Assembly (NCBI RefSeq): GCF_026213295.1
Contig: NC_079416.1
Coordinates: 1,508,083 to 1,572,082 of the forward strand
DNA: 64,000 nt
Origin: Gadus chalcogrammus
Lineage: Eukaryota; Chordata; Actinopteri; Gadiformes; Gadidae
Direction of reading: 5' to 3'
The notes under the pieces are model-generated. The model had not been told where the DNA came from. It saw nothing but the letters and a program-made list of their open reading frames with translations, and made no database searches. Made by a program: the position numbers and the translations under genes. This document shows positions 6,823 to 64,000 of this stretch, one piece after another; the stretch's first letter is position 1, and each line of letters begins with the position of its first letter.

Positions 6823-6904
<82 letters not shown>

Positions 6905-7650: not shown

Positions 7651-7654
7651 CAAA

Positions 7655-29310: not shown

Positions 29311-30056
29311 ATGACAACATCATTTCACCCACAAGTGCTGTAATCTTTCTAGGTGCTTTCTTCCATAACCGATCATGTCTAAACAACATGATAAATCTTA
29401 TAGTGAATGATAGATATTAAAGAAAGAGATATATTTATGATGATATTAAAACAAAGAAACACTTTACAATGAATGATGGATATTAAAGAAAGAGATAGAT
29501 TCATGATGATACTAAAAAAAAGAAGCAAAGAAAATGATTGTTATATGATGATACTAAAACATGATATATGATTTTATGATATTTAACTGATACATGCCTA
29601 AACCTGATACATGAGTAACACTGACATAAGTAAATCTATTCCTCTTCAGTCCTTCAGTCCCCGCTGGTAAAACCCCCACCTTTCCCAAGGCCTTGGACAT
29701 TTTCCAACAGCCCCCACCTCCCTCTCCCTTATCTGCCCACAGACCTCTCCACCTCCTCCCTGTCTCCTGGACTCTGAGAAATCGACCTTACTTGACACTG
29801 GTCAAATCAGCCCGCGTGCGCACTTCAAGGAAGGTAACCAATCACAACGGAGTTGGGTTGGCAGGATGGGGGCAAGGGGTGGAGAAGGACGAAACCGAGC
29901 GTTGACAGAGAATGCTGAAAGCGCCAAGATGAGAGGAAGAGTTTCCCGAAAATCTATATAGTTTTTTGTGTATGGTTAAGCATGACTATCAATCATTATA
30001 ACAACGTTTATACAGTAGGTCATAAAAGTCGAAAAAGCATAATCGGTCCCCTTTAA

Positions 30057-30476
30057 GCTTCTCTTTCAAAGTTTTTATTTCTCTTGAATGCCTTTTTCTC
30101 GTTTTACTTCTCTCCCTTTCCTGTCTGAGAGACTGACTGCTGTGTCTGGCATTGTATTCTTGAATGTTCTGATCTTGCGGACTATCTGGAGGGGTGTGAG
30201 CCTCCAGCACTGCATCTTCATTGGATCTTTTCAGTCTGGACCTTTTTCTTTGCCTCTCTCCAATACTTTCTTCAATTCCTCTTTGCCCTGTCTCCCATCT
30301 CGTCTATTTGTATTTTGTACTTTTTTGTCTGTAACTCTCTTCTTCCACCTTTGTCTTTCCTTCTCTTGCATAGCATGTTTGCTCTCTTGGTCACTGTTTA
30401 ATATTTCCCTTCTCTTTCGTTGGTACTCTCTATTTCTTCTTCTTTGCTCCTCAACTGACAATTTCTGTCTGGCCAT
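30057..30476 (-). pseudogene. N-terminal exon of the uncharacterised coiled-coil gene (left arm copy)
   Basis: This is the first exon of the gene described at 23452-30476, entered separately because it is the outermost gene piece shared by both palindrome arms. The ATG is at 30476. The frame runs 81 residues to a TGA at 30231; a one-base shift then continues it to the TTAA insertion with 'KRHSREIKTLKEKL'. The translated sequence is identical to the 63541 copy, including the frameshift, so the break predates or is shared by the inverted duplication. Confidence 0.8.
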
Positions 30477-30550
30477 GCTTTCCTACAATACAAATTGAAA
30501 AAAAATTACTTAAATAAGACTAAAGAATCAGATTTCTATTTATTGGCATG

Positions 30551-30582
30551 ATTGATTGATGGATGGATGGATGGATGGATGT
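30551..30582. repeat. (GGAT)n microsatellite, mirrored at 63435-63466
   Basis: ATGG/GGAT tetramers, about five copies, between the coiled-coil exon and the LINE. The mirrored copy reads ATCC. Confidence 0.85.
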
Positions 30583-30913
30583 AAAATCCTCAAGGTGTGG
30601 GATGTAGTTTTCATAACAAGATGTTATGAAAATCATACATATTTACATACATATGTAGAGACAGAGATATATGTGCTGGGAACATTACACGTTATACAAT
30701 AATAAGCAGACCACTGCCTGCCCATTCTCTACAAGTCAGATGTGTATGGTTAAATAATGTAATGCATGCTATGTATGTACATTTATGTGTAAATAAAACC
30801 CTGAAATAACATTTTAACCCTTTACTATATTCACAAATGATATTATATTAGCACATTAAGAGGTTATGGAGTGATGGTTATGGATTTGTCAACTCCGTCA
30901 GCTTATAGGTCAA

Positions 30914-32385
30914 CTCTAAGATTTGAACACCAAAGTGACAGCCATATCCGACTACATCAACTTCTGCGTACATACCACCATACCTGTGAAAGCAATAAAA
31001 AAATACCCAAACTCCGAACCCTGGATTACCTCTGAATTTAAAAAAAAGCCTGAGAGAGAAGCACACAGCCTTCAGGCTCAAGGACACAGCTGGTCTCAGA
31101 TCTGCAAACCGCAATCTAAAAAATAAAACCCTCATGGCCAAAATTCAGTTCAAACACAAACTTGAGCACAAGTTCAGCAACAAGAACACTAAAGACGCCT
31201 TTCAGATGGTAAAAACACTCACTGGATACAAACCCACTCACAGCAAAACAACAGCACACACCACAGATGCTCTCCCCACTGATCTAAATACATTTTTAAA
31301 CCGGTTTGACTCACAGGATTACACAGACAAATGCATTAAAGCACTGCAGGCTCTCCCCCAATAGATCCCAATGAGTCTTCCCCCTGGAGGAAGAATCATT
31401 GGGGAGGAAGTCCGCCACCAGCTCAGCCCAGCAAAGCCCCAGGACCCGACGGCATCCCAGCAAGGGTGCTGAAGACCTGTGCCACTGAGCTGGCTCCAAT
31501 TGCCCACTCCCTCTTCTGTGAATCCTACCTGACTGCCACAATACCCCTCCTCTGGAAGAGCGCAACTATAATCCCGGTACCCAAGAAACCACGACCCACC
31601 AAACTAAATAATTGCCGCCCCATTGCCCTCACACCCATAATCATGAAATGCCTGGAAAAACTGGTGCCCAAAACCATCCTCCCATTCGTCAAAACCACAT
31701 CTGGACCCCCTTCAATTTGCATACAGGGAAAAAAGGGGCACAGCGGACGCTGTCGCCTGCCTGCTTCATCTTGTCCTCCAGCACCTACACTCCCCAGGCA
31801 ATTTCGCCAGGATCCTATTTGTGGACTTCAGCTCCGCCTTCAACACCATCCAAAGACACCTGCTCGTCCAGAAGCTTCATCCCCTCAACACTCCACCCAT
31901 CCTGATACACCTCCTGCACAACTTCCTCAGTGACAGACGGCAAGCTGTTCGGGTAGGCACAACCACATCACCTTCACTCACCACCAACACCGGAGCCCCT
32001 CGGGGCTGTGTGCTTAGCCCTTTCCTTTACACCCTGTACACTAATGACTTCACCAGCCCCTCCCACACTACCACCTACCTCAAATACTCAGATGACACTG
32101 CCATCCTAGCTCTTCTGTCAGCCAATAACTCTGTATTGGATTACCACAACACTCTGGTCACACACTTCTCTAAATGGTGCACACATAACCACCTGCATCT
32201 CAATATTTCCAAAACAAAATAAATAACAATAGGCACTCCATCATCCCAGCCCCCCACTCTCATCAACAACGACACAGTAGAAACAGTTGACAGCTTTAAA
32301 TACCTCGGACTCACAATAGACAATAAACTCTCTTTCAACCAGCACACAACGGACATTCAAAAAAGGTGCCATCAAAGACTGTATG
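30914..32385 (+). pseudogene. L2/Jockey-type LINE reverse transcriptase (left arm)
   Basis: The frames together cover a linker ('TIPVKAIKKYPNSEPWITSE'), 'KAPGPDGIPARVLKTCA' (RT start), 'NNCRPIALTPIIMKCLEKL', 'FVDFSSAFNTIQ' (first catalytic Asp), 'GAPRGCVLSPFLYTLYTND', 'YLKYSDDTAILA' (catalytic DD box, with Ser where Ala is usual) and 'NISKTK'. One C fewer than the right copy in a C run near 31360 breaks the frame, and more shifts follow at about 31710. The 3' side ends near 32385, where a hAT remnant begins. No endonuclease domain is present, so the copy is 5'-truncated and dead. Confidence 0.85.
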
Positions 32386-33050
32386 CCAGGGTTCCCCAAT
32401 TAGTTTTTCCAGAGGGCCAAATTTGGTCAAACATGCCATGCCAAGGGCCGAAATGTCGTTTCATTTTTCTAATTCGCCATTTTTATGTGCAAATTTAGCT
32501 TTAATTATAATTACTGTTTTAGCGATAATGCAGGAGGGCTAGATCAATTAGGTTTAAATAGCATCCAGCTTCGACTGGAGGGCTTCAATCGCTTCGTACA
32601 TGTCAGCAACAGTGTGGTTCTTGCCTTGTAGCTGCAGGTTAAGGTGATTCAGATGAGACATGATGTCACAAAAAATTAACATCTGCCAACACCTTGGCGT
32701 CAGCCCGCCAGAAATTTGCGGGCTTTTGGGCTCTGCAGGCTGGATAAAAATGACACACGTTCATCACGCAGGTCGCACACCCTCTCCAACACACGGCCTT
32801 TACTCAGCCAGCGAACATCGTTGTGCAGCAACAGATCTTTGTGTTCAGCTGACATTTCCTCGGCACCTGCTTTCATAGCTCCACAACTTTTGTTTTGATT
32901 TTTTCCTCTTGATTTAAGATTTCACCAGCCATGTGAATTGCACATTGTTTAATGAACTCTGCATCAGCAAAGGGCTTCTTAGCTTCATCAAGCGTCCAGG
33001 AAACATGCAATGAAGCAGCTGTTCAAAATCAAAGTGAAATCAATAAAAAT
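32386..33050 (-). pseudogene. hAT transposase remnant (left arm)
   Basis: The minus strand gives pieces of a ZBED/Charlie-type hAT transposase: 'EAKKPFADAEFIKQCAIHMA', 'HKDLLLHNDVRWLSKGRVLE' and 'NHLNLQLQGKNHTVADMYEA', in that order and separated by shifts and stops. The end at 32386 reads 'ccagggttccccaattag', a hAT-like terminus beginning CAG. The protein's catalytic regions before and after are missing. It is an internally deleted, non-functional copy. Confidence 0.7.
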
Positions 33051-33054
33051 AAAT

Positions 33055-34817
33055 AGTGCTGTCAAGCGACTAAAATATTTAATCGCGATAAAAGAAAGGA
33101 TATTCTAAATATCCCTTGATTTCGTGCTGCTAGCCTTTTAGTGAGATCAGAGTGTTGAGAAGGACAGTAATAAAATATATTTGGTAAGATGGATATAAGA
33201 AGAGAGACCCGCAGTGAATTCAACCCGGTCCACTTGAGATCGGGTAGGTGCATGACAGTGGTAGGCCTACCGTAAAACTAAATAGCCCAGGCTTTTATTT
33301 GTTTCAATCACTGACCTTTCGAACAAAACTCTTGCTCAGCAAAGATGGGAAATACTATAACACTTATTATTAAAACCAGTATGAATATTCCTACCCTGCG
33401 TAGGCCTATACACACTACCAGGCTATCGAATAACACCCCCCCACACACACACACACACACACACACACGGTGGCGGAGTGGTCAATGTAATCGGGAAGTC
33501 GGGAGAATTCCCGGTGGGCCGTTAACGGTTTCGGGGCTGTCTCGATTACTGCGTGATAACATTATTGCGTTTATAAAAGTTCGCTTGCACAGCGTCCGTC
33601 CGGCAGACTGAGTTGTGCGCACCCGCAACCTCTCACTCACTCACACGACACAACACTCACAAACTGTAAATGTCGCAACCAAGTCAATCGTTGTCTAGAA
33701 GGGAGTACACTGAGCCCCCTCCCAAAGTCAGGGTCCGGATCTAACCATATCGGGCACACGGCGAACTGTGCCCAGGGGGTCCCAACCATTCCGCAGCCAG
33801 TGGGGGGTGACCACACACGAAAGAACACGTTTTTTTTTATTTTATTTTTTTTGATGAATGTTTGTACTCTAGTAATAGTATACATGGTATTATTTAAGTA
33901 GGGTATTCATTTAAATTCAGTATTAAAACGAATGTCATAAGAACCAGCAATAATTAATGATTTTCTGATGCAATATCGTGCCTAATGGTGAACAGTTAAC
34001 CCCCCTGAGAGACTAAAAGTAACGTGTCTTAAAGAACTGCAGCGTCTGTGATAATCTATGCACCTGAACACAACGCAGTAGTCGGCGGAGTAAGACCAAG
34101 CGGCGGAGGCTACACTTTATGTGTCATTATGTGTGTGGTAAAATAATAATAATAAAAAAAATATATAGAATTATTTGTTTCCCTGATTTTTTTCGGGGGG
34201 GGGGGCTTCAGACATGTTGTGCCCAGGGCCTAAGATTTTGTCAATCCGGGCGCCCTGACCCCTAAAGTGGTCCAACCCAGGTGGGCCTTGAACGCGATTT
34301 GTCAGAAAGACCAACAGCTAATGATAACATAGAGTGGCAAAGTCCCACCCCTTCCAGGTGGAGCCCATGGGACCTATGAGATCGAAAAAATATGACATGG
34401 GTTTTTCAATGGAGAGAAAAGTAATAATTTTCTGGTCCCAGTCTTTATATTCCCTGGATTACACATATGTTGTTGTGGACTTAAATTGTAATTTTTCATG
34501 CGAAGGAAAACTAAAAAATTACACACCAAACACACACACACTTTTAAGGAGTTGTGATTCCACGCCCACTTCGTATGTCCTTGCTTGCAACGCAGCCAAG
34601 TTTGTGCGGCGTGATGTTTTTTTTTGGTTTCCGGTGTAGCTAGATCGGTATGGTGTTGTAGTTTGTCTAATGTGACGTTTTGTTGCTAGACAGTAGGTTA
34701 AACAAACTACAACGTTTGCCAAGCCAAAGAGCGTTAATTCACTGCGATAAAACAGTTAGCGCCGTTTAAAATTGGTTGCATTAGCGCCGGTAATAACGCG
34801 TTTAAACTGACAGCACT
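33055..34817. mobile_element. AGTGCTGTCA-ended TIR element (left arm)
   Basis: It starts AGTGCTGTCA and ends TGACAGCACT. 'taatcgcgat' and 'taataacgcg' words lie just inside each end. The interior includes a CA run (33440-33468) and 'gggagaattcccggtgggcc', plus a 'gtgcccagggggtcccaacc' block. It is 63 bp longer than the right-arm copy through scattered single-base extras. No target duplication was resolved and no transposase is present. Confidence 0.65.
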
Positions 34818-34839
34818 AAAGATAACTAATCTTATAAGA

Positions 34840-35135
34840 TGATAAGGATTAACAATAACAATACATAGAATATAAGTAACAGGAGGTACGGGAGCTAAAT
34901 CAGTAAGTGGCAAGGGAACTAATGGTGTGTCGCCAAGAGGAGTCCGTAAAACCAAACAAAAAGTCAAAACACCGAGGGGTGTGGAGTAGCAGCCTCGAGC
35001 ACAGACTAGGCAGGCCTTTTTTTTTGAGCTCTTGCGGCAATTCGATCTCAATTCAATTCAACTTAGTTATAGAGCGCGAAAAAACATTTACACATGTCTC
35101 ATGGCACTTTACAGAGTGTTGAACATTCAGAGAGA
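34840..35135. mobile_element. LINE/SINE tail with ATTCA repeats (left arm)
   Basis: 'attcaattcaactta', 'tagagcgcgaaaa', 'catggcactttacagagtg' is the typical tail of a fish non-LTR element. It is mirrored at 58955-59245, where it ends 'ttgaattgaattgag'. Confidence 0.55.
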
Positions 35136-36124
35136 GCCCATGAGGGGCGGAAGGAAGGAACACCACCTTGAATTAAGAGATACCATATTCACCTTATTCC
35201 GCACACCCCTTTTTAAATGTTATTGTCTTCCGCTTTGTGTTGAAAGCTCCAATTGAAAGCTCCACGCTAGCTAGGCTAGACAGCTACATTGAAATACCCG
35301 TGCGAGTAAACTATTTAGTAACCCCCCCATATTATTGGCTATTGTTTTAATGTAATTAGTTTTTAAGTATTATGTCAAAGTATTAACTCAATCATTAAAG
35401 GATTTAGCAAATGCCTCAAATGTGTTTTGATTGACCCTCACTGACAAAGACATTCACGTTTGTGTATAAAATACAGATATTCAGTTAAAGTTTGTTATAG
35501 ATTTGTAAAAATGAACAATATAAACAACCCAAGATGGTGAGTTAGATTTCAGCTTATTTCTACAACTGTATCGGTACCAGACTCTAGCGTTGTGTATTTT
35601 CAGTCGTATGTAGTAATTCTTGAAGTTCGAAATCAAAGCATCTTGACAGGTTGGATGTTATGAGGGTTGAATAGTATGAGTTTATTTTCCAGGAATAGCA
35701 GCGAGATACAGACTTAGGTTGGAATCAATCTATAGTGGACCGGTTAGTCGATCACTTATTCCTTGGCTGTCGAACCCTCTACTCGTCGAACCAAGGGGTG
35801 GGGGCGGAAGTATTATTATAGCAAAAAGGGGTAGTATCATGAACAAGAGAACAGACGGCACTCTTCGAGCAGTTGATAAGGTATCTGGCCCCTAGCTATG
35901 TCCCGGAAGACCAGGTCGGTTCAACCTTGTTGAAACATAACAATGGCAGAATGTTTGGGGATAACACCTTGTATCAGTATGAGAGGCACTTGCCTGTTCC
36001 TAGACTAGAAATGTGAACAAAAGAGAGACACTAAAATACACCAACATTCTACAAAGAGAAACAACATTTTAACCATGTAACCATTACAACTGGTTTAACT
36101 TATAACTGATTGAACATCTTATTC
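35136..36124. other. AT-rich non-coding stretch (left arm), mirror 58030-58954
   Basis: No ORF with recognisable similarity. The right-arm mirror contains the same words (gaccaggtcggttcaacc; ggaataagt) with small indels. Nothing else is seen. Confidence 0.5.
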
Positions 36125-36485
36125 CTCATCTTCTTGTATAATGTCCCCACGAAGATTACATAGACCTGCCAGACTCTCAGAATCTTGTCAAATTTCGGGG
36201 CAAGGTAATGGGCACTGTTTGAGAGACTATTCTGTAGTTCTTCAGGCGATGTAGGACCCTCTCAACGTGCACTCAGGACGTTGGCTATGCGCCCCGTTGT
36301 GGTGGTGTCTTCTTCGGACAAGGGAAGGCCTCTTCTGGTGGAAAGCTGCAGGACGAGCTTGACTTTTACGTTCAAACAGAAGATCTTGGATAACAACTCC
36401 TCGGTCAGCCATCAGCTCATCACAGATACTCCAGAAACCCCTGTGTTGGCTGTGATGAACTTGTCACTGCATCTTCCACCATATG
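36125..36485 (-). pseudogene. DDE_4-type transposase C-terminus (left arm, frameshifted)
   Basis: Mirror of the right-arm reading frame at 57661-58024, but with extra bases that break the frame at several points (for example near 36228 and 36280). Recognisable pieces on the minus strand match 'ELMADRGVVIQDLLF' and 'INLAPKFDKILRVCAGL' in the right copy. Confidence 0.7.
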
Positions 36486-36700
36486 AATAGAATAGAATAG
36501 AATAGAATCTTTATTTGTCATCGGGTTAAATACAGTGTATTTACACAACGAAATTAAGGTGCAGATCTTGTTCAGTGCTTTTTATTTTTAATAAAGAATA
36601 AATAGAATACAGTAGGAGATATTAATAAATATATAACAACAATAACAACAATAACAACAATAATAACAATAACCCCAATAACCCCTCCCCCTGCCTTCCA
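36486..36700. mobile_element. non-LTR tail with (AATAG)n and AAC repeats (left arm)
   Basis: 'aatagaatagaatagaatc' then 'tttatttgtcatcgggttaa', 'acacaacgaaatta', followed by a (CAA/TAA)n tract at 36633-36672. Typical of a fish LINE/SINE 3' end. The mirror is at 57445-57660. Confidence 0.65.
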
Positions 36701-37639
36701 CTTAGGCCCAATCCCGTTTCTTTGCTCACTGTCTCAACCCTACCCCTCATTGCTACCCCCTCATTGCTACCCCTCATTGCTACCCCTCATTGCTACCCCT
36801 AACCGATCCCCTACCAAATGGGACAACCCTACCCTGTGACGTCATCATGGCCTCCCCGTGCCCCTAGCAGATAACCAGACCCCTGGTAATGTTACAAGAG
36901 ACAGACTGGCTGCCATTGTCTCGGGCAACGAGCAAGACCCATGATGTTTAACCTGAAATGGTATTTATATTTTGTAATTGGCATGTTTAAATAAAGTATT
37001 AAAAAAAAAAAAAAAAATTAATACTATTTGTCCCTCGTAATATACCTTTATTTTGAATGTCACTTAGCTACATGTTAAAGGTGGTATTAGGGTGCACTCA
37101 CACTAGGGCCATCTGGCCGGGGCCGTTGGCCGTTTTCACTCCTAACCGTGCCCCAGTGTTCTCTGGCCTGCACTCACACTAGGCCATCTGGCCGTGGCCC
37201 GTTGGCCGTCGCAGCTGTGGCCTGGCCACGGAAGGCTCTTGTGCATACGTCATCACGTCGTAAACGTCATCACCCAGCGTCCCGCTGCATGGACCATAAT
37301 AAGCCTGCCGCCAGTCAGAGTTTTAACACAATGACAACAACACAGAGAACACACCAACAGTTGAACTGTTTACCGTTTAATGGGAAGAAGAGGCTCGTCG
37401 CCTTTAGTATGTCCGTGGTCGTCCGCGTTGACTATACGTCATCCAGCTCAGGTTGCGTAGCCGTGCGTGGGCGCGTGTCGCTCATTAGCATCTGTACCGT
37501 AGCGGCCCGGTCGTAGCAGCACACCTCAAATACCACAACCTAAATAAGAAACACTGAACCACAATCTAAAATACACACACACGCATCTAAAATACACACA
37601 CACGCACACCTAAAAATACACACACACATACACTCACTC

Positions 37640-38680
37640 TCTCTCTCAGCTTTTGAGAGAATGGTGGAGAATCACATCTTCTCAACCATTCCGCCAACTT
37701 TGCCTTGCTCTCCTCATGCCTCGCCTGCTCCCTGGCACTCTCCTCTTGGAAGGGTGTCTGGGGTGGTGGAAGAGGTGCCTGGGGTGGAGGAAGCATGAGG
37801 GAGAGGTGGTGGGGGGGCTGGTGGCAGTGACTCAACGAAGTCCTGAAAGAAAACGAATAAGAAGGAATTAGGAATTATATGCCAGAACTGGTTGATATGG
37901 CCATATGTTATGTACAATATATAATAGCTATGTACACAATATAGGTACTGCCAAAAAATACATTGATTAACCATGTAAGAATACTAATATAATATATTAG
38001 TATATATAATAATACTATAGAAATTTACTAATATAATATAATATATAGTATATATAATATTACTTATATAATATTACTAATAATTAGTATAAATCTTATT
38101 TTAACCTGGAGTCACTAGAACATGGAAGATCTGGATATCATACGACATGATATGCAGCCCGGTCTGCAGAGCCCGGTCGACGGCCGGGCTGCAGAGCCCG
38201 GTTCTCGGCCGGGCTGCCGGCCGAGAACCGGGGAAAGTCGGCCGCGGACTTTCGCGATCTTCGCGAAAGTCGGCCGCGGACTTTCGCGATCTTCCGCGAA
38301 GTCGGCCGCGGACTTTCGCGATCTTCCGAGAGTCTCACGGCCGGGCTTTCGAAGAATATTACAAATATATATATATATTAGTATAAAATCTTATTTTTAA
38401 ACCTGGAGTCACTAGAACATGGAAGATCTGTATATCATACGACATGATATGCAGCCCGGTCTGCAGCCCGGTCGATGGCCGGGCTGCAGAGCCCGGCCGA
38501 TCTTCCGCGAAAGTCGGGCCGCGGACTTTCGCGATCTTCCGAGAGTCCACGGCCGGGCTTCGAAGGCCCGCGGCCGTGGCTGGCAGAGTATAATTATAAA
38601 ATAATTACTAGTTAATTACAGAGAAAAACACTTACATTTGGGTTTTTCCAATCCTGTCGCATCTTTTCGCCCTCCATCTT
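37640..38680 (-). pseudogene. accessory-gene remnant of the Harbinger-like element (left arm)
   Basis: Mirror of 55448-56490. The minus strand encodes 'FQEESAREQARHEESKAKLA' and 'EWLRRCDSPPFSQKLRERV' (E to K change at one site), and exon 1 is near 38640-38680 with extra bases. It is part of the Harbinger-like element at 36705-38917. Confidence 0.5.
38154..38580. repeat. GC-rich palindromic tandem array (left arm)
   Basis: Two blocks (38154-38355 and 38448-38580) follow repeated leaders ('cctggagtcactagaaca', 'tcatacgacatgatatgcag'). They are built of ~33-bp units combining 'cggactttcgcgatcttc' with 'cgcgaagtcggccg', where 'cgaaagtc' and 'gactttcg' can pair. A second motif alternates 'gcagcccgg' and 'ccgggctgc'. 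The array sits inside very AT-rich DNA. Confidence 0.85.
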
Positions 38681-39039
38681 GTCTAGGATAGTTCTTGATT
38701 TCAGTTTCGTTCGCAAGGTATTGTGGGAGCAAGTCAGAACTGAAGCGCTTGAGGGTGCCCATGGAAAATCTCAATTTTGAGGGGATGTTAAGCCCTCCCC
38801 CTTACCCCTCATCTACCTCAAATGTGGTAATGGGACATGACTCCACGGCGCGTGAACCGCGCAACAGTGAGGGTTAGGGTTGAGATTTTCTATGTAGCAA
38901 AGGAATGAGATTGGGCCTTAAGATACATTTAAGCATCCTACACCCTCCCCTCCCCTCCCAGGACAACAACCCCTTCTGCCCACATATATCTAAATAGCAG
39001 CAGGTCCAGGAAGGTAAGCATAATGAGGAATGTCCAAAG

Positions 39040-39305
39040 GTAGTGGTGACTTGTTCATGTGAGTTGTCTATGTATTGCACAGGGGTTATTTTTTGTTTAG
39101 CGTACGTATGGCCCAGGGGAAGAAGCTGTTGGTTAGTCTGGTGGTGCGTGATTTCATTGAACTGTATCGCCTGCCAGAGGGAAGCAGATCGAACAGGTGG
39201 TGAGCAGGTGTGCGTAGCGTCTTTTAGATGGATCTGGTCCTGTTTCGGCAGCGGGGAGCTGGCCAGCTCTTCCAAGGAGGGCAGTGGGGCAGCCTGTGAC
39301 TTCTG
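39040..39305 (-). pseudogene. LINE C-terminal fragment (left arm)
   Basis: Mirror of 54820-55065. The minus strand gives 'MEELASS' and, in another frame, pieces of 'LFDLLPSGRRY' and 'SRTTRLTNSFFPWAIRTLN'. These are the last residues of L2-type LINE proteins. Confidence 0.65.
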
Positions 39306-39316
39306 AGCTGTGCTAA

Positions 39317-40282
39317 CACTGGAAAGAAGGGTTTCTAAAGCCGTACTTCATCTGATTATTATTTGGTAATGCAATTCAATAAACATTTTATTTTTTATTT
39401 TTAAAATAACTTTTTTTTATTTCAAAATACTGTGAAATATAGATATTTTTAATTAGGAGCTCAATTAAGAAATATCCATTTTGACAAATGTAAAATGTTT
39501 AAGGTTGTGTATTCAACTGATTAATAATTTTGTCATTCAATCCAAATCATTTTTTTTGTTTTCTCCTAAAACAGATTCTAGCTTCTTTTTCAGCTGCTAT
39601 TGGTGACTTTTGGCGACTTTTTGAGGTGAAAGCACCAGCCTTGACCAGAGTGACGATGACTCACTGGTTCTGTGAGCTAGGACAGTCTGTCTGTGTCTGG
39701 AGGGAGGTCTGGAGTAGGTCTAACTCTTCTGCCATTTAGATTGTTAATATATATTGTATATTGTGTGGGCGGCAGTAGCTCAGGTGATAGAGCGGGTTGT
39801 AGATTTGTCGCTTGTCGCTGTTATGAAAAAAAGTCGCCAAGGGGGGTCTGAAAAGTAGCTAAATATAGCGACAAAATCGCTAAGTTGGCAACACCTGCAG
39901 TTTGGTCCAGTAGTCGTACAGTGTCTTTGTATTTAATGCGCATGCCGCAGGCTTGTACGTAACCTTGAAAATTGTACATTTGTCTGAACAATATTTCTAA
40001 ATGAGCTCCTTATCAATTATAAACAGTGTTATAGGAAGAAAACAAAAAAAAAATATTTGGATTGAATGACAAAATTATTAATCAGTTGAATACACAACCT
40101 TAAAATTTTACATTTGTCAAAATGGATATTTCTTAATTGAGCTCCTAATTAAAAAATATCTATATTTCACAGTATTTTGAAATAAAAAAAAGTTATTTTA
40201 AAATAAAACAAAAAATGTTTATTTGAATTTAATTACAAAATAATAATCAGATGAAGTACGGCTTAAAACCCTTTTTCCAGTG
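39317..40282. mobile_element. TA-flanked element with ~260-bp inverted arms (left arm)
   Basis: Ends CACTGG...CCAGTG. The long arms include 'gccgtacttcatctgattat' and its inverse. The unequal middle contains a SINE head and 'agcgattttgtcgctatatt'-type words. A TA flanks the clean right-arm copy on both sides, suggesting Tc1/mariner-type target choice. Confidence 0.72.
39766..39835 (+). mobile_element. tRNA-derived SINE head (left arm), mirror 54300-54370
   Basis: 'ggcggcagtagctcaggtga' then 'tagagcgggttgt' resembles the 5' half of a tRNA with an A box. There is no anticodon/T-arm half, so it is a SINE head or fragment and not a tRNA gene. Confidence 0.6.
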
Positions 40283-41550: not shown

Positions 41551-41597
41551 GGTGCAGTGCTGTTAATAAAACCTGTTTACGTAATTTGTTCATAGGA

Positions 41598-41777: not shown

Positions 41778-41778
41778 A

Positions 41779-42725: not shown

Positions 42726-42726
42726 C

Positions 42727-51220: not shown

Positions 51221-51252
<32 letters not shown>

Positions 51253-52380: not shown

Positions 52381-52381
52381 T

Positions 52382-52565: not shown

Positions 52566-53558
52566 AACAAATTATTAAACAGGTTTTATTAACAAGCACT
52601 GCACTCACATCAGGGGAGCATGCTTTATGCTTCCTACACATGTGAGAAGTAAATGATGACTTTTTTGTAAACATGTGCTTACAACCACTTACTGGACATG
52701 ACACAGACCTGCCCTCTCCAATATGATCATTTAAGTGAGACACTAGCTCTTTCACTGTGTGAAAATGGCCGGCACATAATGAAACTGCGCATTTTAAATC
52801 TGCAACAACAGCTCTAGGAGTGGCTTGCGGTTCAGGTGCATTGTGCACGCGATAAAAATGCCCCTTGAAAGCTGCATAAGTGGTAAATGTTTGACTACAG
52901 TTGGCGCTGTCATGCCAAATTTATACCGGCTGCCAAATTTGTACCGGGCGCGTCATCCATACGTAATCCATTCCAAACCTGCCTGGCAACAGATGATCGC
53001 GTCGTCCGTTGCCTGGCAACGGACAATCGCGTCGAACGACGTGAAAGGTTCACGGACATTCGCAAACCTTCTATCTAGCGATCCGTTATCTGTATTGTGC
53101 TATTTCGTCCTTGACCTGCTTTAAACACTCAGTTTACTTGCTAAATTTGATTAAACAATTAAATACAATACCAATATAAAGTGTTATCTAGCGATCCGTT
53201 TTCTGTATTATGTTATTTCGTCTTTGGCAACATCAGCGCAAATGTTTTTTGAAACCCGCTTTAAACACTCAGTTTACTAGCTAAATTTGATTAAACAATT
53301 AAATACAATACAAATATAAAGTAAAAACAAGTGTTTTTACTTTATATTTGGACGACGCGATCATCTGTTGCCAGGCAGGTTTGGAATGGATACGTATGGA
53401 TGACGCGCCCGGTACAAATTTGGCAGCCGGTACAAATTTGGCATGACAGCGCCAACACATTTGAAAAGACAACGAGGCTCATTCCTATGCACTCTGCAAT
53501 GTAGTACATAGCCTCTTAATGTAACCAATATCTTTCTACAAAAGACGCAGGTGATCAT
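52561..53558 (-). pseudogene. C2H2 N-terminus of an EnSpm-like gene (right arm)
   Basis: ATG at 53558. The first finger is 'CVFCRKILVTLRGYVLHCRVH' split as C-x2-C-x12-H-x3-H, followed by 'CLFKCVGA'. A TIR element (52908-53448) interrupts it. The frame then resumes with 'YAAFKGHFYRVHNAPEPQAT', 'CAVSLCAGHFHTVKELVSHL' and a finger 'CPVSGCKHMFTKKSSFTSH'. Removing the element with one GCGC keeps the codons in frame. This is the finger-rich start typical of the EnSpm-like family whose catalytic part is seen at 14986-17405. Here the catalytic part is missing. Confidence 0.75.
52908..53448. mobile_element. TGTCATGCC TIR element with GCGC target (right arm)
   Basis: Mirror copy, 541 bp, GCGC at 52904-52907 and 53449-53452. 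It inserted into the codons for 'CVGAN' of the C2H2 gene. Taking it out with one GCGC restores the frame, which proves the borders. Confidence 0.85.
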
Positions 53559-53857
53559 TTTTATAGAGTTATCAATCTATTGGTCTTTAGCCTGCTACAT
53601 ATCAACTGTTGCTAGCGCCTGCTAAATATCAACTGGTGCTAGCTTACACCATGTGCTTTCAGCAAAAAGTAGGAAAAGTAGCCGACATTTTAAGCTTACC
53701 TTGCAAACTTTTTTGCAATAGCACCGGATCGATTGAATAGCCACGGATCTTCCAATCGTGGATTTGTCCAAAAGAAGTTGAATGAAAGTAGTACAAAGTA
53801 GTCCGGTAGTCCGAAGATTTCTGATGTGTTCGCCACTCTGCAGACGCGGCGGCGCTA

Positions 53858-54814
53858 CACTGGAAAAAGGGTTTTAAGCCGTACTTCATCTGATTATTAT
53901 TTTGTAATTCAATTCAAATAAACATTTTATTTTTTATTTTTAAAATAACTTTTTTTTATTTCAAAATACTGTGAAATATAGATATTTTTAATTAGGAGCT
54001 CAATTAAGAAATATCCATTTTGACAAATGTAAAATTTTAAGGTTGTGTATTCAACTGATTAATAATTTTGTCATTCAATCCAAATATTTTTTTTTTGTTT
54101 TCTTCCTATAACACTGTTATATTTGATAAGGAGCTCAATTTAGAAATATTTGTTCAGACAAATGTACAATTTCAAGGTTACGTACAAGCCTGCGCATGCG
54201 CATTAAATACAAAGACACTTACGACTACTGGACCAAACTGCAGTGTTGCCAACTTAGCGATTTTGTCGCTATATTTAGCTACTTTTCAGACCCCTTTGGC
54301 GACTTTTTTTCATAACAGCGACAAGCGACAAATCTACAACCCGCTCTATCACCTGAGCTACTGCCGCCACACAATATACAATATATATTAACAATCTAAA
54401 TGGCAGAGTTAGACCTACTCCAGACCTCCCTCCAGACACAGACAGACTGTCCTAGCTCACAGAACCAGTGAGTCATCGTCACTCTGGTCAAGGCTGGTGC
54501 TTTCACCTCAAAAAGTCGCCAAAAGTCACCAATAGCAGCTGAAAAAGAAGCTAGAATCTGTTTTAGGAAGAAAACAAAAAAAAATGATTTGGATTGAATG
54601 ACAAAATTATTAATCAGTTGAATACACAACCTTAAAATTTTACATTTGTCAAAATGGATATTTCTTAATTGAGCTCCTAATTAAAAATATCTATATTTCA
54701 CAGTATTTTGAAATAAAAAAAAGTTATTTTAAAAATAAAACAAAAAATGTTTATTTGAATTTAATTACAAAATAATAATCAGATGAAGTACGGCTTAAAA
54801 CCCTTTTTCCAGTG
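53858..54814. mobile_element. TA-flanked element with ~260-bp inverted arms (right arm)
   Basis: Mirror copy, 957 bp, flanked by TA at 53856-53857 and 54815-54816. It separates the C2H2 gene's upstream exon-like sequence from the LINE C-terminal fragment. Confidence 0.72.
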
Positions 54815-54819
54815 TAGGC

Positions 54820-55065
54820 ACAGCTCAGAAGATCACAGGCTGCCCACTGCCCTCCTTGGAAGAGCTGGCCAGCTCCCGCTGCCGAAACAGGACCAGATCC
54901 ATTCTAAAAGACGCTACGCACCCTGCTCACCACCTGTTCGATCTGCTTCCCTCTGGCAGGCGATACAGTTCAATGAAATCACGCACCACCAGACTAACCA
55001 ACAGCTTCTTCCCCTGGGCCATACGTACGCTAAACAAAAAATAACCCCTGTGCAATACATAGACA
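54820..55065 (+). pseudogene. LINE C-terminal fragment (right arm)
   Basis: The frame reads 'LEELASSRCRNRTRSILKDA', 'THPAHHLFDLLPSGRRYSSM' and 'SRTTRLTNSFFPWAIRTLNK', the conserved end of L2-type LINE ORF2 proteins in fish. The catalytic domain is absent, and the fragment abuts the TA-flanked element. Confidence 0.7.
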
Positions 55066-55447
55066 ACCACATGAACAATCACCACTACCTTTGGACATTC
55101 CTCATTATGCTTACCTTCCTGGACCTGCTGCTATTTAGATATATGTGGGCAGAAGGGGTTGTTGTCTGGGAGGGAGGGGAGGGTGTAGGATGCTTAAATG
55201 TATCTTAAGGCCCAATCTCATTCCTTTGCTACATAGAAAATCTCAACCCTAACCCTCACTGTTGCGCGTTCACGCGCCGTGGAGTCATGTCCCATTACCA
55301 CATTTGAGGTAGATGAGGGGTAAGGGGGAGGGCTAACATCCCCTCAAAATTGAGATTTTCCATGGGCACCCTCAAAGCGCTTCAGTTCTGACTTGCTCCC
55401 ACAATACCTTGCGAGAAAACTGAAAATCAAGAAATATCCTAGACAAG

Positions 55448-56490
55448 ATGGAGGGCGAAAAGCTGCGACAGGATTGGAAAAACCCAAATGTAAGTGTTTT
55501 CTCTGTAATTAACTAGTAATTATTTTATTAATTATACTCTGCAGCCCGGCCGCGGGCTTCGAAGCCCGGCCGTGGACTCTCGGAAGATCGCGAAAGTCCG
55601 CGGCCGACTTTCGCGGAAGATCGGCCGGGCTCTGCAGCCCGGCCATCGACCGGGCTGCAGACCGGGCTGCATATCATGTCGTATGATATACAGATCTTCC
55701 ATGTTCTAGTGACTCCAGGTTAAAAATAAGATTTATACTAATATATTATATTATATTTGTAATATTCTTCGAAGCCCGGCCGTGGACTCTCGGAAGATCG
55801 CGAAAGTCCGCGGCCGACTTTCGCGGAAGATCGCGAAAGTCCGCGGCCGACTTTCGCGGAAGATCGCGAAAGTCCGCGGCCGACTTTCCCGGTTCTCGGC
55901 CGGCAGCCCGGCCGAGAACCGGGCTCTGCAGCCCGGCCGTCGACCGGGCTCTGCAGACCGGGCTGCATATCATGTCGTATGATATCCAGATCTTCCATGT
56001 TCTAGTGACTCCAGGTTAAAAATAAGATTTATACTAATATATTATATTATATTAGTAATATTATATAAGTAATATTATATATACTAATATATTATATTAT
56101 ATTAGTAATATTCTATAAGTATTATTATATATACTAATATATTATATTAGTAATATTACATGGTTAATCAATGTATTTTTTGGCAGTACTATATTGTGTA
56201 CATAGCTATTATATATTGTACATAACATATGGCCATATCAACCAGTTCTGGCATATAATTCCTAATTCCTTCTTATTCGTTTTCTTTCAGGACTTCGTTG
56301 AGTCCACTGCCACCAGCCCCCCCACCACCTCTCCCTCATGCTCCTCCACCCCAGGCACCTCTTCCACCACCCCAGACACCCCTTCCAAGAGGAGAGTGCC
56401 AGGGAGCAGGCGAGGCATGAGGAGAGCGAGGCAAAGTTGGCGGAATGGTTGAGAAGATGTGATTCTCCACCATTCTCTCAAAAGCTGAGA
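55448..56490 (+). pseudogene. accessory-gene remnant of the Harbinger-like element (right arm)
   Basis: Exon 1 (55448-55489) reads 14 codons, 'MEGEKLRQDWKNPN', to a GTAAGT donor. A second exon after 'tttctttcag' (56291 on) encodes a Pro-rich stretch and then 'FQEESAREQARHEESEAKLA' and 'EWLRRCDSPPFSQKLRERV' before a GT-rich intron-like run. Small indels between the arms change the frame of the Pro-rich part. The acidic/Arg-rich coil resembles tails of Harbinger accessory proteins, which is an inference. The exons between are missing and the GC array lies in the intron. Confidence 0.55.
55540..55985. repeat. GC-rich palindromic tandem array (right arm)
   Basis: Mirror of 38154-38580. Three clean copies of a 33-bp unit (core 'cgcgaaagtccgcggccgac') lie at about 55798-55885, with a shorter block at 55540-55668. 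Leaders 'gtatgatatccagatcttcc' and 'gtatgatatacagatcttcc' close the two blocks. Confidence 0.85.
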
Positions 56491-57349
56491 GAGAGAGTGA
56501 GTGTATGTGTGTGTGTATTTTTAGGTGTGCGTGTGTGTGTATTTTTAGATGCGTGTGTGTGTATTTTTAGATGTGTGGTTCAGTGTTTCTTATTTAAGGT
56601 GTGGTATTTGAGGTGTGCTGCTACGACACGGGCCGCTACGGTACAGATGCTAATGAGCCGACACGCGCACACGCACGGCTACGCAACCTGAGCTGGATGA
56701 CGTATAGTCAACGCGACGACCACGGACATAATAAAGGCGACGAGCCTTCTTTCCCATTAAACGGTAAACAGTTCAACTGTTGGTGTGTTCTCTGTGTTGT
56801 TGTCCATTGTTGTTAAAACTCTGACTGGCGGCAGGCTTTATTATGGTCCATGCAGCGGACGCTGGGTGATGACGTGTTACGACGTGATGACGTATGCACA
56901 AGAGCCTTCCGTGGCCAGGCCACAGCTGCGACGGCCAACGGCCACGGCCAGATGGCCTAGTGTGAGTGCAGGCCAGAGAACAATGGGGCACGGTTAGGAG
57001 TGAAAACGGCCAACGGCCACGGCCAGATGGCCTAGTGTGAGTGCACCCTAATACCACCTTTAACATGTAGCTAAGTGACATTCAAAATAAAGGTATATTA
57101 CGAGGGACAAATAGTATTAATTTTTTTATTTTTTTTTAATACTTTATTTAAACATGCCAATTACAAAATATAAATACCATTTCAGGTTAAACATCTTTAC
57201 AATGGGTCTTGCTCGTTGCCCGAGACAATGGCAGCCAGTCTGTCTCTTGTAACATTACCAGGGGTCTGGTTATCTGCTAGGGGGCACGGGGAGGCCATGA
57301 TGACGTCACAGGGTAGGGTTGTCCCATTTGGTAGGGGATCGGTTAGGGG

Positions 57350-57408
57350 TAGCAATGAGGGGTAGCAATGAGGGGTAGCAATGAGGGGTAGCAATGAGGG
57401 GTAGGGTT
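57350..57408. repeat. 13-bp tandem repeat aggggtagcaatg, mirror 36735-36800
   Basis: Four to five exact copies of AGGGGTAGCAATG next to the right TIR of the Harbinger-like element. It is an expansion of a subterminal word. The left arm has the inverse copies. Confidence 0.85.
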
Positions 57409-57444
57409 GAGACAGTGAGCAAAGAAACGGGATTGGGCCTAAGT

Positions 57445-57660
57445 GGAAGGCAGGGGGAGGGGTTATTGGGGTTATTGTTATTATTGTTGTTATTGTTGTT
57501 ATTGTTGTTATATATTTATTAATATCTCCTACTGTATTCTATTTATTCTTTATTTATAAAAAAAAAGCACTGAACAAGATCTGCACCTTAATTTCGTTGT
57601 GTAAATACACTGTATTTAACCCGATGACAAATAAAGATTCTATTCTATTCTATTCTATTC
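57445..57660. mobile_element. non-LTR tail with (TATTC)n (right arm)
   Basis: Mirror of 36486-36700: (TTG/TTA)n at about 57474-57512, 'taatttcgttgtgtaaatac', 'gacaaataaagattctattc' and TATTC pentamers up to 57660. Confidence 0.65.
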
Positions 57661-58024
57661 ATATGGTGGAAGATGCAGTGACAAGTTCATCACAGCCAAC
57701 ACAGGGTTTCTGGAGTATCTGTGATGAGCTGATGGCTGACCGAGGAGTTGTTATCCAAGATCTTCTGTTTGAACGTAAAGTCAAGCTCGTCCTGCCAGCT
57801 TTCACCAGAAGAGGCCTTCCCTTGTCCGAAGAAGACACCACCAACACGGGGCGCATAGCCAACGTCCGAGTGCACGTTGAGAGGGTCATACATCGCCTGA
57901 AGAACTACAGAATAGTCTCTCAAACAGTGCCCATTAACCTTGCCCCGAAATTTGACAAGATTCTGAGAGTCTGTGCAGGTCTATGTAATCTTCGTGGGGA
58001 CATTATACAAGAAGATGAGGAATA
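57661..58024 (+). pseudogene. DDE_4-type transposase C-terminus (right arm)
   Basis: An open frame reads 'ICDELMADRGVVIQDLLF', 'VLPAFTRRGLPLSEEDTTNT', 'RIANVRVHVERVIHRLKNYR', 'LAPKFDKILRVCAGLCNLRG' and ends at TAA 58023-58025. 'MADRG' and 'HVERVI' hold the second Asp and the Glu of a DDE_4-type (Harbinger/ISL2EU-like) transposase. The N-terminal part with the first Asp is missing. A LINE/SINE tail (57545-57660) abuts the 5' side, so the gene was cut by that insertion. Upstream codons in the open frame belong to the tail. Confidence 0.8.
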
Positions 58025-58954
58025 AGATGTTCAATCAGTTATAAGTTAAACCAGTTGTAATGGTTACATGGTTAAAATGTTGTTTCTCTTTGTAGAATGT
58101 TGGTGTATTTTAGTGTCTCTCTTTTGTTCACATTTCTAGTCTAGGAACAGGCAAGGGCCTCTCATACTGATACAAGGTGTTATCCCCAACATTCTGCCAT
58201 TGTTATGTTTCAACAAGGTTGAACCGACCTGGTCTTCCGGGACATAGCTAGGGCCAGATACCTTATCAATGCTGAGAGTGCGTCTGTTCTCTTGTTCATA
58301 TATCCCCTTTTTGTATAATACTCGCCCCAACCCTTTGGTTCGACGAGTAGAGGGTTCGACAGCCAAGGAATAAGTCATCGACTAACCGGGTCCACTATAG
58401 ATTATTCAACCTAAGTCTGTATCTCGCTGTATTCCTGGAAAATAAACCATCTATTCAACCCTCTAATCCAACCTGTCAAGATGCTTTGATTTCGACTTCA
58501 AGAATTACTACTACGACTGAAAATACACAACGCAGAGTCTGTCCGAACAGTTTAGAAATAAGCTGAAATCTAACATCTTGTTGTTTATATTGTTCATTTT
58601 TACAAATCTATAACAAACTTTAACTGATATCTGTATTTTATACACAAACGTGATGTCTTTGTCAGTGAGGGTCAATAAAAACACATTTGAGGCATTTGCT
58701 AAATCCTTTAATGATTGAGTTAATACTTTGACATAATACTAAAAACTAATTACATTAAAAACAATAGCCAATAATATGTACAAATAGTTTTCGCCGGGTA
58801 TTTCAATGTAGCTGTCTAGCCATAGCTAGCTGGAGCTTTCAATTGGAGCTTTCAACACAAAGCGGAAGACAATAACATTTAAAAAGGGGTGTGGCGGAAT
58901 AAGGTGAATATGTATCTCTAATTCAAGTGTGTTTTCCTCGCCCCTCATGGGCTC

Positions 58955-59245
58955 TCTCTGAATGTTCAACACTCTGTAAAGTGCCATGAGACATGTGTAA
59001 TGTTTTTGCGCTCTATAAATAAAGTTGAATTGAATTGAGATCGATTGACAGGCCAAAAAAAGGCCTGCCTAGTCTGTGCTCGAGGCTGCTACTCACCCCT
59101 CGGTGTTTTGACTTTTTGTTTGGTTTTACAGGACTCCTCTTTGCGCCACACCATTAGTTCCCTTGCACTTACTGATTTAGCTCCCGTAACTCCCGTTACT
59201 TTATATTCTTATGTATTGTTATTGTTAATCCTTATCATTTAATAA
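58955..59245. mobile_element. LINE/SINE tail (right arm)
   Basis: Mirror of 34840-35135: 'gtaaagtgccatgagac', 'gcgctctataaataaag', 'ttgaattgaattgag'. Confidence 0.55.
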
Positions 59246-59260
59246 AGATTATTTATCTTT

Positions 59261-60541
59261 AGTGCTGTCAGTTTAACGCGTTATTAACGGCGTTAATGCA
59301 AACCAATTTTAACGGCGCTAATTTTTTTATCGCGTGATTAACGCTCTTTTGGCTTGGCAAACGTTGTAGTTTTTTAACCTACTGTCTAGCAACAACTAGT
59401 CACATTAGAAAAACTAAAACACCATACCGGATCTAGCTACACCGGAAACAAAAAAACAATCACGCCGCACAAACTTGTTGGGGCAAGCAAGGATACGGAG
59501 CGGGTGAATAACTCCTTAAAAGTGTGTGTGTGTTTGTGTGTAATTTTTTAGTTTTCCTTGCATGAAAAATACAATTTAAGTCCACAAACAACATATGTGT
59601 AATCCAGGGAATATAAAGACTGGGACCAGAAAATTATTACTTTCTCTCCATTGAAACCCATTCATATTTTTCGATCTCATAGGTCCCATGGGCTCTACCG
59701 GAAGGGGTGGGACTTTGCCACTCTATGTTATCATTAGCTGTTGGTCTTTCTGACAAATCGCAGTTCAAGGCCCACCTGGGTTGGACCACTTTGGGCAGGG
59801 CCGGATTGACAAATCTTAGGCCCCTGGGCACAAATGTCTGAAGCCCCCCCCCCCGAAAAAAATCAGGAAAAAATAATTCTATATATTTTTTTTATTATTA
59901 TTATTTTAACACACACATAATGACACATAAAGTGTAGCCGGCTTGGTCTTACTCCGCCGACTACTGCGTTGTGTTCAGGTGCATAGATATCACAGGACGC
60001 TGCAGTTCTTTTAAGACACTTTACTTTTAGTCTCTCAGGGGGGTTAACTGTCACATTAGGCCACTATATTGTTCAGAATCATTATATTGCTGTTCTTATG
60101 ACATTCGTTTTAATAATGAATTTTAAATGAATACCCTATTTAATAATACCATGTATAACTATTTTAAGAGTACAAACATTCATAAAAAAATAAATAAAAA
60201 AAAAGTTTCTTTCGTGTGGTGCCCCCCCACTGGCTGGGAATGGTTGGGACCCCTGGGCACAGTGCCGTGTGCCCTAATGGTAGATCCGGCCCTGACTTTG
60301 GGAGGGGCTCAGTTACTCCCCTCTAGACAAAATTGACTTGGTTGCGACATTTACAGTTTGTGAGTGTTGTGTCTGTTGAGTGAGTGAGAGGTTGCGGGTG
60401 CACAACTCAGGCTGCCGGACGGCGCTGCAAGGAACTTTTATAAACGCAATATTGTTATCACGCAGTAATCAGACAGCCCCGAAACGTTAACGGCCCACCG
60501 GGAATTCTCCCGACTTCCCGATTACATTGACCACTCCGCCA

Positions 60542-60574
<33 letters not shown>

Positions 60575-60960
60575 GGGGTGTTATTCGATAGCCTGGTAGT
60601 GTGTATAGGCCTACGCAGGGTAGGAATATTCATACTGGTTTTAATAATAAGTGTTATAGTATTTCCCATCTTTGCTGAGCAAGAGTTTTGTTCGAAAGGT
60701 CAGTGATTGAAACAAATAAAAGCCTGGGCTATTTTAGTTTTACGGTAGGCCTACCACTGTCATGCACCTACCCGATCTCAAGTGGACCGGGTTGAATTCA
60801 CTGCGGGTCTCTCTTCTTATATCCATCTTACCAAATATATTTTATTACTGTCCTTCTCAACACTCTGATCTCACTAAAATGCTAGCAGCACGAAATCAAG
60901 GGATATTTAGAATATCCTTTCTTTTATCGCGATTAAATATTTTAGTCGCTTGACAGCACT
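59261..60960. mobile_element. AGTGCTGTCA-ended TIR element (right arm)
   Basis: 1700-bp mirror of 33055-34817. The block near 60220-60300 reads 'gggccctgggcac'-type fish repeat words without the extra bases seen at 33720-33800, and the CA/GT run is at 60543-60571. It is probably the more accurate copy. Confidence 0.65.
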
Positions 60961-60964
60961 ATTT

Positions 60965-61629
60965 ATTTTTATTGATTTCACTTTGATTTTGAACAGCTGC
61001 TTCATTGCATGTTTCCTGGACGCTTGATGAAGCTAAGAAGCCCTTTGCTGATGCAGAGTTCATTAAACAATGTGCAATTCACATGGCTGGTGAAATCTTA
61101 AATCAAGAGGAAAAAATCAAAACAAAAGTTGTGGAGCTATGAAAGCAGGTGCCGAGGAAATGTCAGCTGAACACAAAGATCTGTTGCTGCACAACGATGT
61201 TCGCTGGCTGAGTAAAGGCCGTGTGTTGGAGAGGGTGTGCGACCTGCGTGATGAACGTGTGTCATTTTTATCCAGCCTGCAGAGCCCAAAAGCCCGCAAA
61301 TTTCTGGCGGGCTGACGCCAAGGTGTTGGCAGATGTTAATTTTTTGTGACATCATGTCTCATCTGAATCACCTTAACCTGCAGCTACAAGGCAAGAACCA
61401 CACTGTTGCTGACATGTACGAAGCGATTGAAGCCCTCCAGTCGAAGCTGGATGCTATTTAAACCTAATTGATCTAGCCCTCCTGCATTATCGCTAAAACA
61501 GTAATTATAATTAAAGCTAAATTTGCACATAAAAATGGCGAATTAGAAAAATGAAACGACATTTCGGCCCTTGGCATGGCATGTTTGACCAAATTTGGCC
61601 CTCTGGAAAAACTAATTGGGGAACCCTGG
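60965..61629 (+). pseudogene. hAT transposase remnant (right arm)
   Basis: Mirror copy of 32386-33050 with the same three protein segments on the plus strand (about 61010-61130, 61145-61300 and 61330-61455) and the same stops, so the decay is shared by both arms. Confidence 0.7.
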
Positions 61630-63103
61630 CATACAGTCTTTGATGGCACCTTTTTTGAATGTCCGTTGTGTGCTGGTTGAAAGAGAGTTTATTGTCTATT
61701 GTGAGTCCGAGGTATTTAAAGCTGTCAACTGTTTCTACTGTGTCGTTGTTGATGAGAGTGGGGGGCTGGGATGATGGAGTGCCTATTGTTATTTATTTTG
61801 TTTTGGAAATATTGAGATGCAGGTGGTTATGTGTGCACCATTTAGAGAAGTGTGTGACCAGAGTGTTGTGGTAATCCAATACAGAGTTATTGGCTGACAG
61901 AAGAGCTAGGATGGCAGTGTCATCTGAGTATTTGAGGTAGGTGGTAGTGTGGGAGGGGCTGGTGAAGTCATTAGTGTACAGGGTGTAAAGGAAAGGGCTA
62001 AGCACACAGCCCCGAGGGGCTCCGGTGTTGGTGGTGAGTGAAGGTGATGTGGTTGTGCCTACCCGAACAGCTTGCCGTCTGTCACTGAGGAAGTTGTGCA
62101 GGAGGTGTATCAGGATGGGTGGAGTGTTGAGGGGATGAAGCTTCTGGACGAGCAGGTGTCTTTGGATGGTGTTGAAGGCGGAGCTGAAGTCCACAAATAG
62201 GATCCTGGCGAAATTGCCTGGGGAGTGTAGGTGCTGGAGGACAAGATGAAGCAGGCAGGCGACAGCGTCCGCTGTGCCCCTTTTTTCCCTGTATGCAAAT
62301 TGAAGGGGGTCCAGATGTGGTTTTGACGAATGGGAGGATGGTTTTGGGCACCAGTTTTTCCAGGCATTTCATGATTATGGGTGTGAGGGCAATGGGGCGG
62401 CAATTATTTAGTTTGGTGGGTCGTGGTTTCTTGGGTACCGGGATTATAGTTGCGCTCTTCCAGAGGAGGGGTATTGTGGCAGTCAGGTAGGATTCACAGA
62501 AGAGGGAGTGGGCAATTGGAGCCAGCTCAGTGGCACAGGTCTTCAGCACCCTTGCTGGGATGCCGTCGGGTCCTGGGGCTTTGCTGGGCTGAGCTGGTGG
62601 CGGACTTCCTCCCCAATGATTCTTCCTCCAGGGGGAAGACTCATTGGGATCTATTGGGGGGAGAGCCTGCAGTGCTTTAATGCATTTGTCTGTGTAATCC
62701 TGTGAGTCAAACCGGTTTAAAAATGTATTTAGATCAGTGGGGAGAGCATCTGTGGTGTGTGCTGTTGTTTTGCTGTGAGTGGGTTTGTATCCAGTGAGTG
62801 TTTTTACCATCTGAAAGGCGTCTTTAGTGTTCTTGTTGCTGAACTTGTGCTCAAGTTTGTGTTTGAACTGAATTTTGGCCATGAGGGTTTTATTTTTTAG
62901 ATTGCGGTTTGCAGATCTGAGACCAGCTGTGTCCTTGAGCCTGAAGGCTGTGTGCTTCTCTCTCAGGCTTTTTTTTAAATTCAGAGGTAATCCAGGGTTC
63001 GGAGTTTGGGTATTTTTTTATTGCTTTCACAGGTATGGTGGTATGTACGCAGAAGTTGATGTAGTCGGATATGGCTGTCACTTTGGTGTTCAAATCTTAG
63101 AGT
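61630..63103 (-). pseudogene. L2/Jockey-type LINE reverse transcriptase (right arm)
   Basis: Mirror of 30914-32385. A continuous 266-residue frame (62882 to 62082) covers the linker and the first RT blocks up to a shift near 62290, and a second frame (62194 to 61793) holds 'VDFSSAFNTIQ' and 'YSDDTAI'. The C run near 62656 has six bases here and five on the left. Otherwise the translations agree. Confidence 0.85.
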
Positions 63104-63540
63104 TGACCTATAAGCTGACGGAGTTGACAAATCCATAACCATCACTCCATAACCTCTTAATGTGCTAATATAATATCATTTGTGAATATAGTAAAGGGTT
63201 AAAATGTTATTTCAGGGTTTTATTTACACATAAATGTACATACATAGCATGCATTACATTATTTAACCATACACATCTGACTTGTAGAGAATGGGCAGGC
63301 AGTGGTCTGCTTATTATTGTATAACGTGTAATGTTCCCAGCACATATATCTCTGTCTCTACATATGTATGTAAATATGTATGATTTTCATAACATCTTGT
63401 TATGAAAACTACATCCCACACCTTGAGGATTTTACATCCATCCATCCATCCATCCATCAATCAATCATGCCAAATAAATAGAAATCTGATTCTTTAGTCT
63501 TATTTAAGTAATTTTTTTTCAATTTGTATTGTAGGAAAGC

Positions 63541-63957
63541 ATGGCCAGACAGAAATTGTCAGTTGAGGAGCAAAGAAGAAGAAATAGAGAGTACCAACGA
63601 AAGAGAAGGGAAATATTAAACAGTGACCAAGAGAGCAAACATGCTATGCAAGAGAAGGAAAGACAAAGGTGGAAGAAGAGAGTTACAGACAAAAAAGTAC
63701 AAAATACAAATAGACGAGATGGGAGACAGGGCAAAGAGGAATTGAAGAAAGTATTGGAGAGAGGCAAAGAAAAAGGTCCAGACTGAAAAGATCCAATGAA
63801 GATGCAGTGCTGGAGGCTCACACCCCTCCAGATAGTCCGCAAGATCAGAACATTCAAGAATACAATGCCAGACACAGCAGTCAGTCTCTCAGACAGGAAA
63901 GGGAGAGAAGTAAAACGAGAAAAAGGCATTCAAGAGAAATAAAAACTTTGAAAGAGA
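63541..63957 (+). pseudogene. N-terminal exon of the uncharacterised coiled-coil gene (right arm copy)
   Basis: ATG at 63541, same 81 residues, same frameshift and same TTAA boundary as the left copy. The rest of the gene, if present, lies beyond the window after another copy of the TTAA element. Confidence 0.8.
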
Positions 63958-64000
63958 AGCTTAAAGGGGACCGATTATGCTTTTTCGACTTTTATGACCT

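Follow-up and report, generated by a model that had tools for sequence, protein, structure and literature searches.

The window analysed here, a stretch of 64,000 nucleotides from Gadus chalcogrammus (C5:1508083-1572082 in an assembly of 630 Mb and 168 contigs), is dominated by an inverted repeat, and the question arises whether the chromosome itself or only its assembly carries this structure. The initial annotation had offered two branches, one a genome structure that would be remarkable, the other a serious error of assembly. With the sequence read a further 60 kb past the window and 20 kb before it, the error branch was favoured; the genome-structure branch was disfavoured by the start of one arm at a scaffold gap, by the polarity of the errors and by a missing target-site duplication. 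Very probably the giant palindrome is a misassembly, folded back inside a palindromic transposon; the right arm would be the genuine chromosome and the left arm its false inverted duplicate. The gap coincidence, the quality asymmetry and the transposon are points absent from the initial annotation.

Extent and geometry of the inverted repeat

The palindrome described for 30017-64000 was confirmed by an end-to-end alignment with its own reverse complement; chance does not give such symmetry. It was larger than first noted, extending from 21953 to ~75439, i.e., 11.4 kb beyond the window edge, with a left arm of ~25 kb and a right arm of ~28 kb. A scaffold gap of 100 N occupies 21853-21952, and the first base after this gap (21953) is the start of the left arm. 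On the right side the sequence goes on past 75439, on the left side the arm stops at the gap. A genuine palindrome should pass into unique flanking DNA at either end, and an arm ending at a contig end or gap is a mark of an artefact; here the left arm ended directly beside the gap. Its outer zone (21953-33450) is a near-identical reverse complement of the right-arm sequence 60565-75439, minus a stretch of 3.37 kb. A patch resembling raw reads follows (33450-47135), comprising the left inner arm and the first bases past the centre. From 47136 to 64000 the right arm is clean, and it continues to 75439 outside the window. The centre of symmetry (47043-47173) is a palindromic repeat core whose longest perfect arms measure 24 bp (47043-47066 and 47150-47173), with 83 nt between them; in an alternative register there are perfect arms of 16 bp with 47 nt between. 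The previously described 24-nt spacer was not found as such.

Window positions 1-21852 and the 20 kb upstream were rejected as a continuation of the right arm, since among the 40 longest matches only repeat matches were obtained, the longest of 945 bp. A third copy of the arms was likewise rejected: two stretches of the arms (2.0 and 3.5 kb) were searched in the 630 Mb assembly, and among the 40 scored candidates for each, no place other than the two arms matched over the full length.

The 3.37 kb stretch is present in the right arm only, between the direct repeats A (64219-65251) and A' (67574-68614). The single left copy (28758-29798) follows A' to ~29322 and A from ~29383; the switch between these positions removes the 3.37 kb. 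A plain hairpin read would not yield this switch; a further assembly collapse or another haplotype is needed. A and A', ~1.04 kb long and 98.2 % identical, belong to a region (64219-71208) mostly outside the window, in which further direct repeats (65351-66353 and 70197-71208) are 97.7 % identical; the region resembles a tandem duplication split by a 1.4 kb insertion whose ends are inverted.

Differences between the arms

Between 30017 and 47109, an affine alignment yielded 277 events of extra bases on the left (372 bases), 146 events of bases lacking on the left (171 bases) and 140 mismatches, counts that depend on the aligner, as a first MAFFT alignment, replaced by this one, gave more mismatches and fewer gaps. 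361 of the 423 indels had a size of 1 bp. The net surplus of 201 bases on the left explains the drift of 200 in the sums of mirrored positions that the initial annotation had recorded. Transitions and transversions occurred in a ratio of 27:110 (30017 to ~47070), unlike usual neutral divergence. Arms of a genuine palindrome present substitution divergence or symmetric homogenisation; the differences observed were dominated by indels and mostly confined to one arm. An old segmental duplication with neutral divergence was rejected on the same observation.

The quality of the left arm changed in steps at ~33.45, 36.0 and 47.135 kb. Difference events were almost absent up to 33.4 kb, reached ~7 % with many insertions between 33.45 and 36.0 kb and amounted to ~3-4 % between 36 and 47 kb. 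The whole inner zone (33.45-47.13 kb) was rich in one-base indels, and the sequence was clean from ~47135 on when set against three further copies of the central repeat. Within 21953-33450, the outer zone, the arms differed almost only by bases lost on the left: 19 small losses and one substitution (33135) were listed, leaving aside the paralogue differences of A and A' and an item of two bases where the compared stretch ends. With the A/A' switch likewise left aside, this was the only arm-specific substitution listed in the outer zone; the inner zone is very error-rich.

The polarity of these differences was read from repeat copies elsewhere in the genome that match the right arm over at least 200 bp with at least 88 % identity. 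Seventeen outside sequences served as witnesses (C12, C72, C22, L002-L008, L025-L030 and window positions 1-21852), representing 14 distinct places, as L002 overlaps with C22, L004 with C12 and L005 with C72. Of 523 difference columns, taken from an alignment with low gap cost that over-counts substitutions, 454 sided with the right arm, 41 with the left and 28 with neither; 37 of the 41 left-siding columns fall in the central transposon. Eleven of the 19 loss sites listed for the outer zone were compared with two to three outside copies each, five copies being fetched from listed matches and differences at alignment ends not counted. The base or bases lost on the left were present in the outside copies at all 11 sites, with the letters of the right arm at eight and other letters at three. 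The column counts, these 11 sites and the 27:110 ratio give one arm a markedly lower consensus quality of the sequencing-error type, as in an artefact.

Reading frames were affected as well. The left arm alone lacks one base at ~31355, which breaks a frame of 311 aa that stays open in the right arm, and the view that all stops and frameshifts of the outer part are shared was not confirmed. The base was present in all seven outside copies covering the site, of which two look identical; an eighth fetched match did not cover it. Several frames of the right arm are longer than their left counterparts, and a 204-aa frame at 57411-58025 (+) with a DDE_Tnp_4 match has no left counterpart of at least 150 aa. 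Conversely, the right arm offers no counterpart of at least 150 aa to a 157-aa frame on the left (38874-39347). Transposase fragments with Pfam DDE_Tnp_4 matches, which we take to be of Harbinger type, lie at 7182-7673 (-) and 57411-58025 (+). The frames at 61793-63017, with their left counterpart at 31340-32219, have relatives elsewhere in the genome at 81-94 % identity and by their motifs presumably resemble non-LTR reverse transcriptase; a Pfam search with 62085-63017 returned no family.

The palindromic transposon at the turn

Comparison with other copies identified the centre of symmetry as the asymmetric core of a repeat family. The central 401 bp matched at least 40 scored places, the window included (80 rows in both orientations, from the best 40 of 908 candidates). 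Longer stretches of three other copies showed the family to be naturally palindromic, and their homology with the arms of the window stopped at 51453 on the right and at 42725 on the left. The palindromic transposon holding the turn (42725-51453) has the borders CAACCCGG...CCGGGTTG. That the whole palindrome is a single large transposon was rejected, since other copies end at borders corresponding to 42725 and 51453. An insertion of ~1.07 kb is mirrored in both halves of the window element (45660-46743 and 47475-48548); seven other copies (L002-L008) read straight through.

The copy C12 is self-inverted over 3579-10411 (L017 and L018) with 98.6 % identity; thus long inverted repeats make up most of the element, as in foldback-type DNA transposons. 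The family consists of near-perfect palindromic DNA transposons, ~6.8 kb long in C12 with halves of ~3.4 kb and the termini CAACCCGGTATCACGC. The asymmetric core of ~110 bp was oriented forward on the contig strand in four and reverse in three of the seven copies L002-L008, which may simply be the orientation of insertion. Another copy of the central repeat (C5:13300467, L049-L052) has halves that are 100 % identical over 1,297 bp; its symmetry ends inside the stretch read, in which the usual borders were not found.

Thirteen other copies were sampled (C12, C72, C22, C17, C16, C20, C19, C7, C1, C8, C9, C4 and a second one on C5). Five of them could be delimited at both ends, and each of these five carried a perfect direct duplication of 7 bp (GGTATTG, TGCAGAA, CACCAGC, TTATATA and TACATAC), the fixed-length target-site duplication of a foldback-type DNA transposon. 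C72 has two 3' borders; its duplication was scored at the outer border, and the inner border has none. Mirroring past a border, or to the outer edge of the stretch read, occurred in none of the 13 copies, with less weight on the eight without both borders, which were read in short pieces only. The window copy has no target-site duplication. Its flanks, GTTGAGC| and |GCTCAAC, are reverse complements of each other. A search of the assembly that allowed up to one mismatch gave no hit for the expected true left border, in which the direct duplication GCTCAAC precedes the element, and so the true left flank was not recovered; a control pattern returned exactly the two mirrored borders. The true left border may lie in unassembled sequence.

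Private variants mirrored between the halves of the window element were rejected as proof of a fold-back. In the aligned core stretch C72 and C12 also present mirrored variants, and C22 an unmirrored one. Mirrored private variants within single copies (C12, C72) suggest arm-to-arm homogenisation.

Origin of the left arm

We infer the cause of the palindrome from what was observed, namely its geometry, the asymmetry in quality, a family of natural palindromes and the lack of a target-site duplication in the window copy. Followed leftwards, the right arm reaches the border of the natural palindromic transposon at 51.45 kb; in the middle of the element the assembled sequence turns and repeats the right arm on the opposite strand, as far as the end of its contig at the scaffold gap (21953). 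A strand may have snapped back in the element during library preparation, or an adapter may have been missed, either of which would give a fold-back read. By another route, reads entering the element could overlap their own reverse complements, or gap filling could have contributed. Snap-back of a strand and reverse-complement overlap of reads are possible because the halves of the element are reverse complements. A redundant, moderately corrected contig of 11.5 kb would then have been bridged to the clean contig by one or few uncorrected long reads. Such bridging is suggested by the raw-looking patch of 13.7 kb. The transposon alone places the fold-back after its insertion and does so equally for a fold in the chromosome and for one in the computer. 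Points against a misassembly are the 41 of 523 columns siding with the left arm, the 157-aa frame found on the left only, the 3.37 kb switch and the left flank that was not recovered. A further one comes from PMC12870357, where none of the three PacBio samples examined had systematic fold-backs. In other respects the paper speaks for a misassembly: it puts fold-back reads at ~0.55-0.6 % of the genomic reads from ONT and mentions assembly-graph tangles as one of their effects.

A genuine and very recent fold-back duplication would start from a break near the palindromic transposon, whose halves snap back so that repair copies at least 25 kb of flank; the left arm would be real and merely poorly assembled. 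The symmetry does turn at a natural inverted repeat, and such repeats are said to have been reported by Tanaka in 2002 as seed sites of large palindromes. A real fold-back would equally leave mirrored flanks and a missing target-site duplication, and the true left border was not found elsewhere in the assembly. However, the left arm begins exactly at the scaffold gap, and most of the polarisable differences resemble errors and fall on the left arm. With one outer-zone substitution listed, the A/A' switch set aside, a real duplication would also have to be almost brand new. We regard this origin as unlikely. Less likely still, indeed improbable, are two haplotypes joined head to head, i.e., a misassembly of alleles with one allele in the right arm and the other, inverted, in the left outer contig. 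Such a join could account for the absence of the 3.37 kb between direct repeats, as in a deletion allele, and the outer left zone does look like a separate, less corrected contig. But two alleles of an outbred organism normally show more than the single substitution that was listed for the outer zone besides lost bases and the A/A' switch, and a repeat collapse explains that switch equally well. What favours the fold-back misassembly over a real duplication is the coincidence with the gap, the polarity of the errors and the almost complete lack of substitutions.

If it stays in the assembly, the false arm doubles each gene and each transposon of ~25 kb, introduces broken reading frames and encourages the wrong report of a palindromic or amplified region. 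A test independent of reads is offered by mirrored flanks in place of a target-site duplication at a palindromic transposon, combined with one-sided error polarity by outside copies. Long-read assemblies may turn round recurrently at natural palindromic transposons. Were the structure genuine, an almost brand-new palindrome of more than 50 kb with a snap-back at a transposon of several kb, then a family with at least 40 listed places would provide ready-made seeds of inverted duplications.

Sex chromosomes carry large natural palindromes with long, near-identical inverted arms. The window shares such arms, but is without a unique left flank and has error-like indels on one arm. The fold-back artefacts profiled with Breakinator (PMC12870357) likewise consist of a strand followed by its own reverse complement and lead to assembly-graph tangles; in the window, by contrast, the fold stands in a finished assembly and turns at a natural palindromic transposon, with the causal read only hypothetical. 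The authors of Pacasus attribute inverted duplications of a published gorilla Y assembly to whole-genome amplification; once palindromic reads had been split, these duplications were undetected in the compared contigs (PMC6218980). These artificial palindromes resemble the window as false inverted duplications in an assembly, but there they were traced to amplification (PMC6218980), whereas nothing in the window shows whether its library was amplified. The central element shares long inverted repeats and direct duplications of 7 bp with the foldback-like Galileo of Drosophila, for which chimeric copies without matching duplications, as in the window copy, are described (PMC3573991). The inverted repeats given there for Galileo measure up to ~1.26 kb, whereas the central element is almost entirely palindrome, ~6.8 kb with halves of ~3.4 kb.
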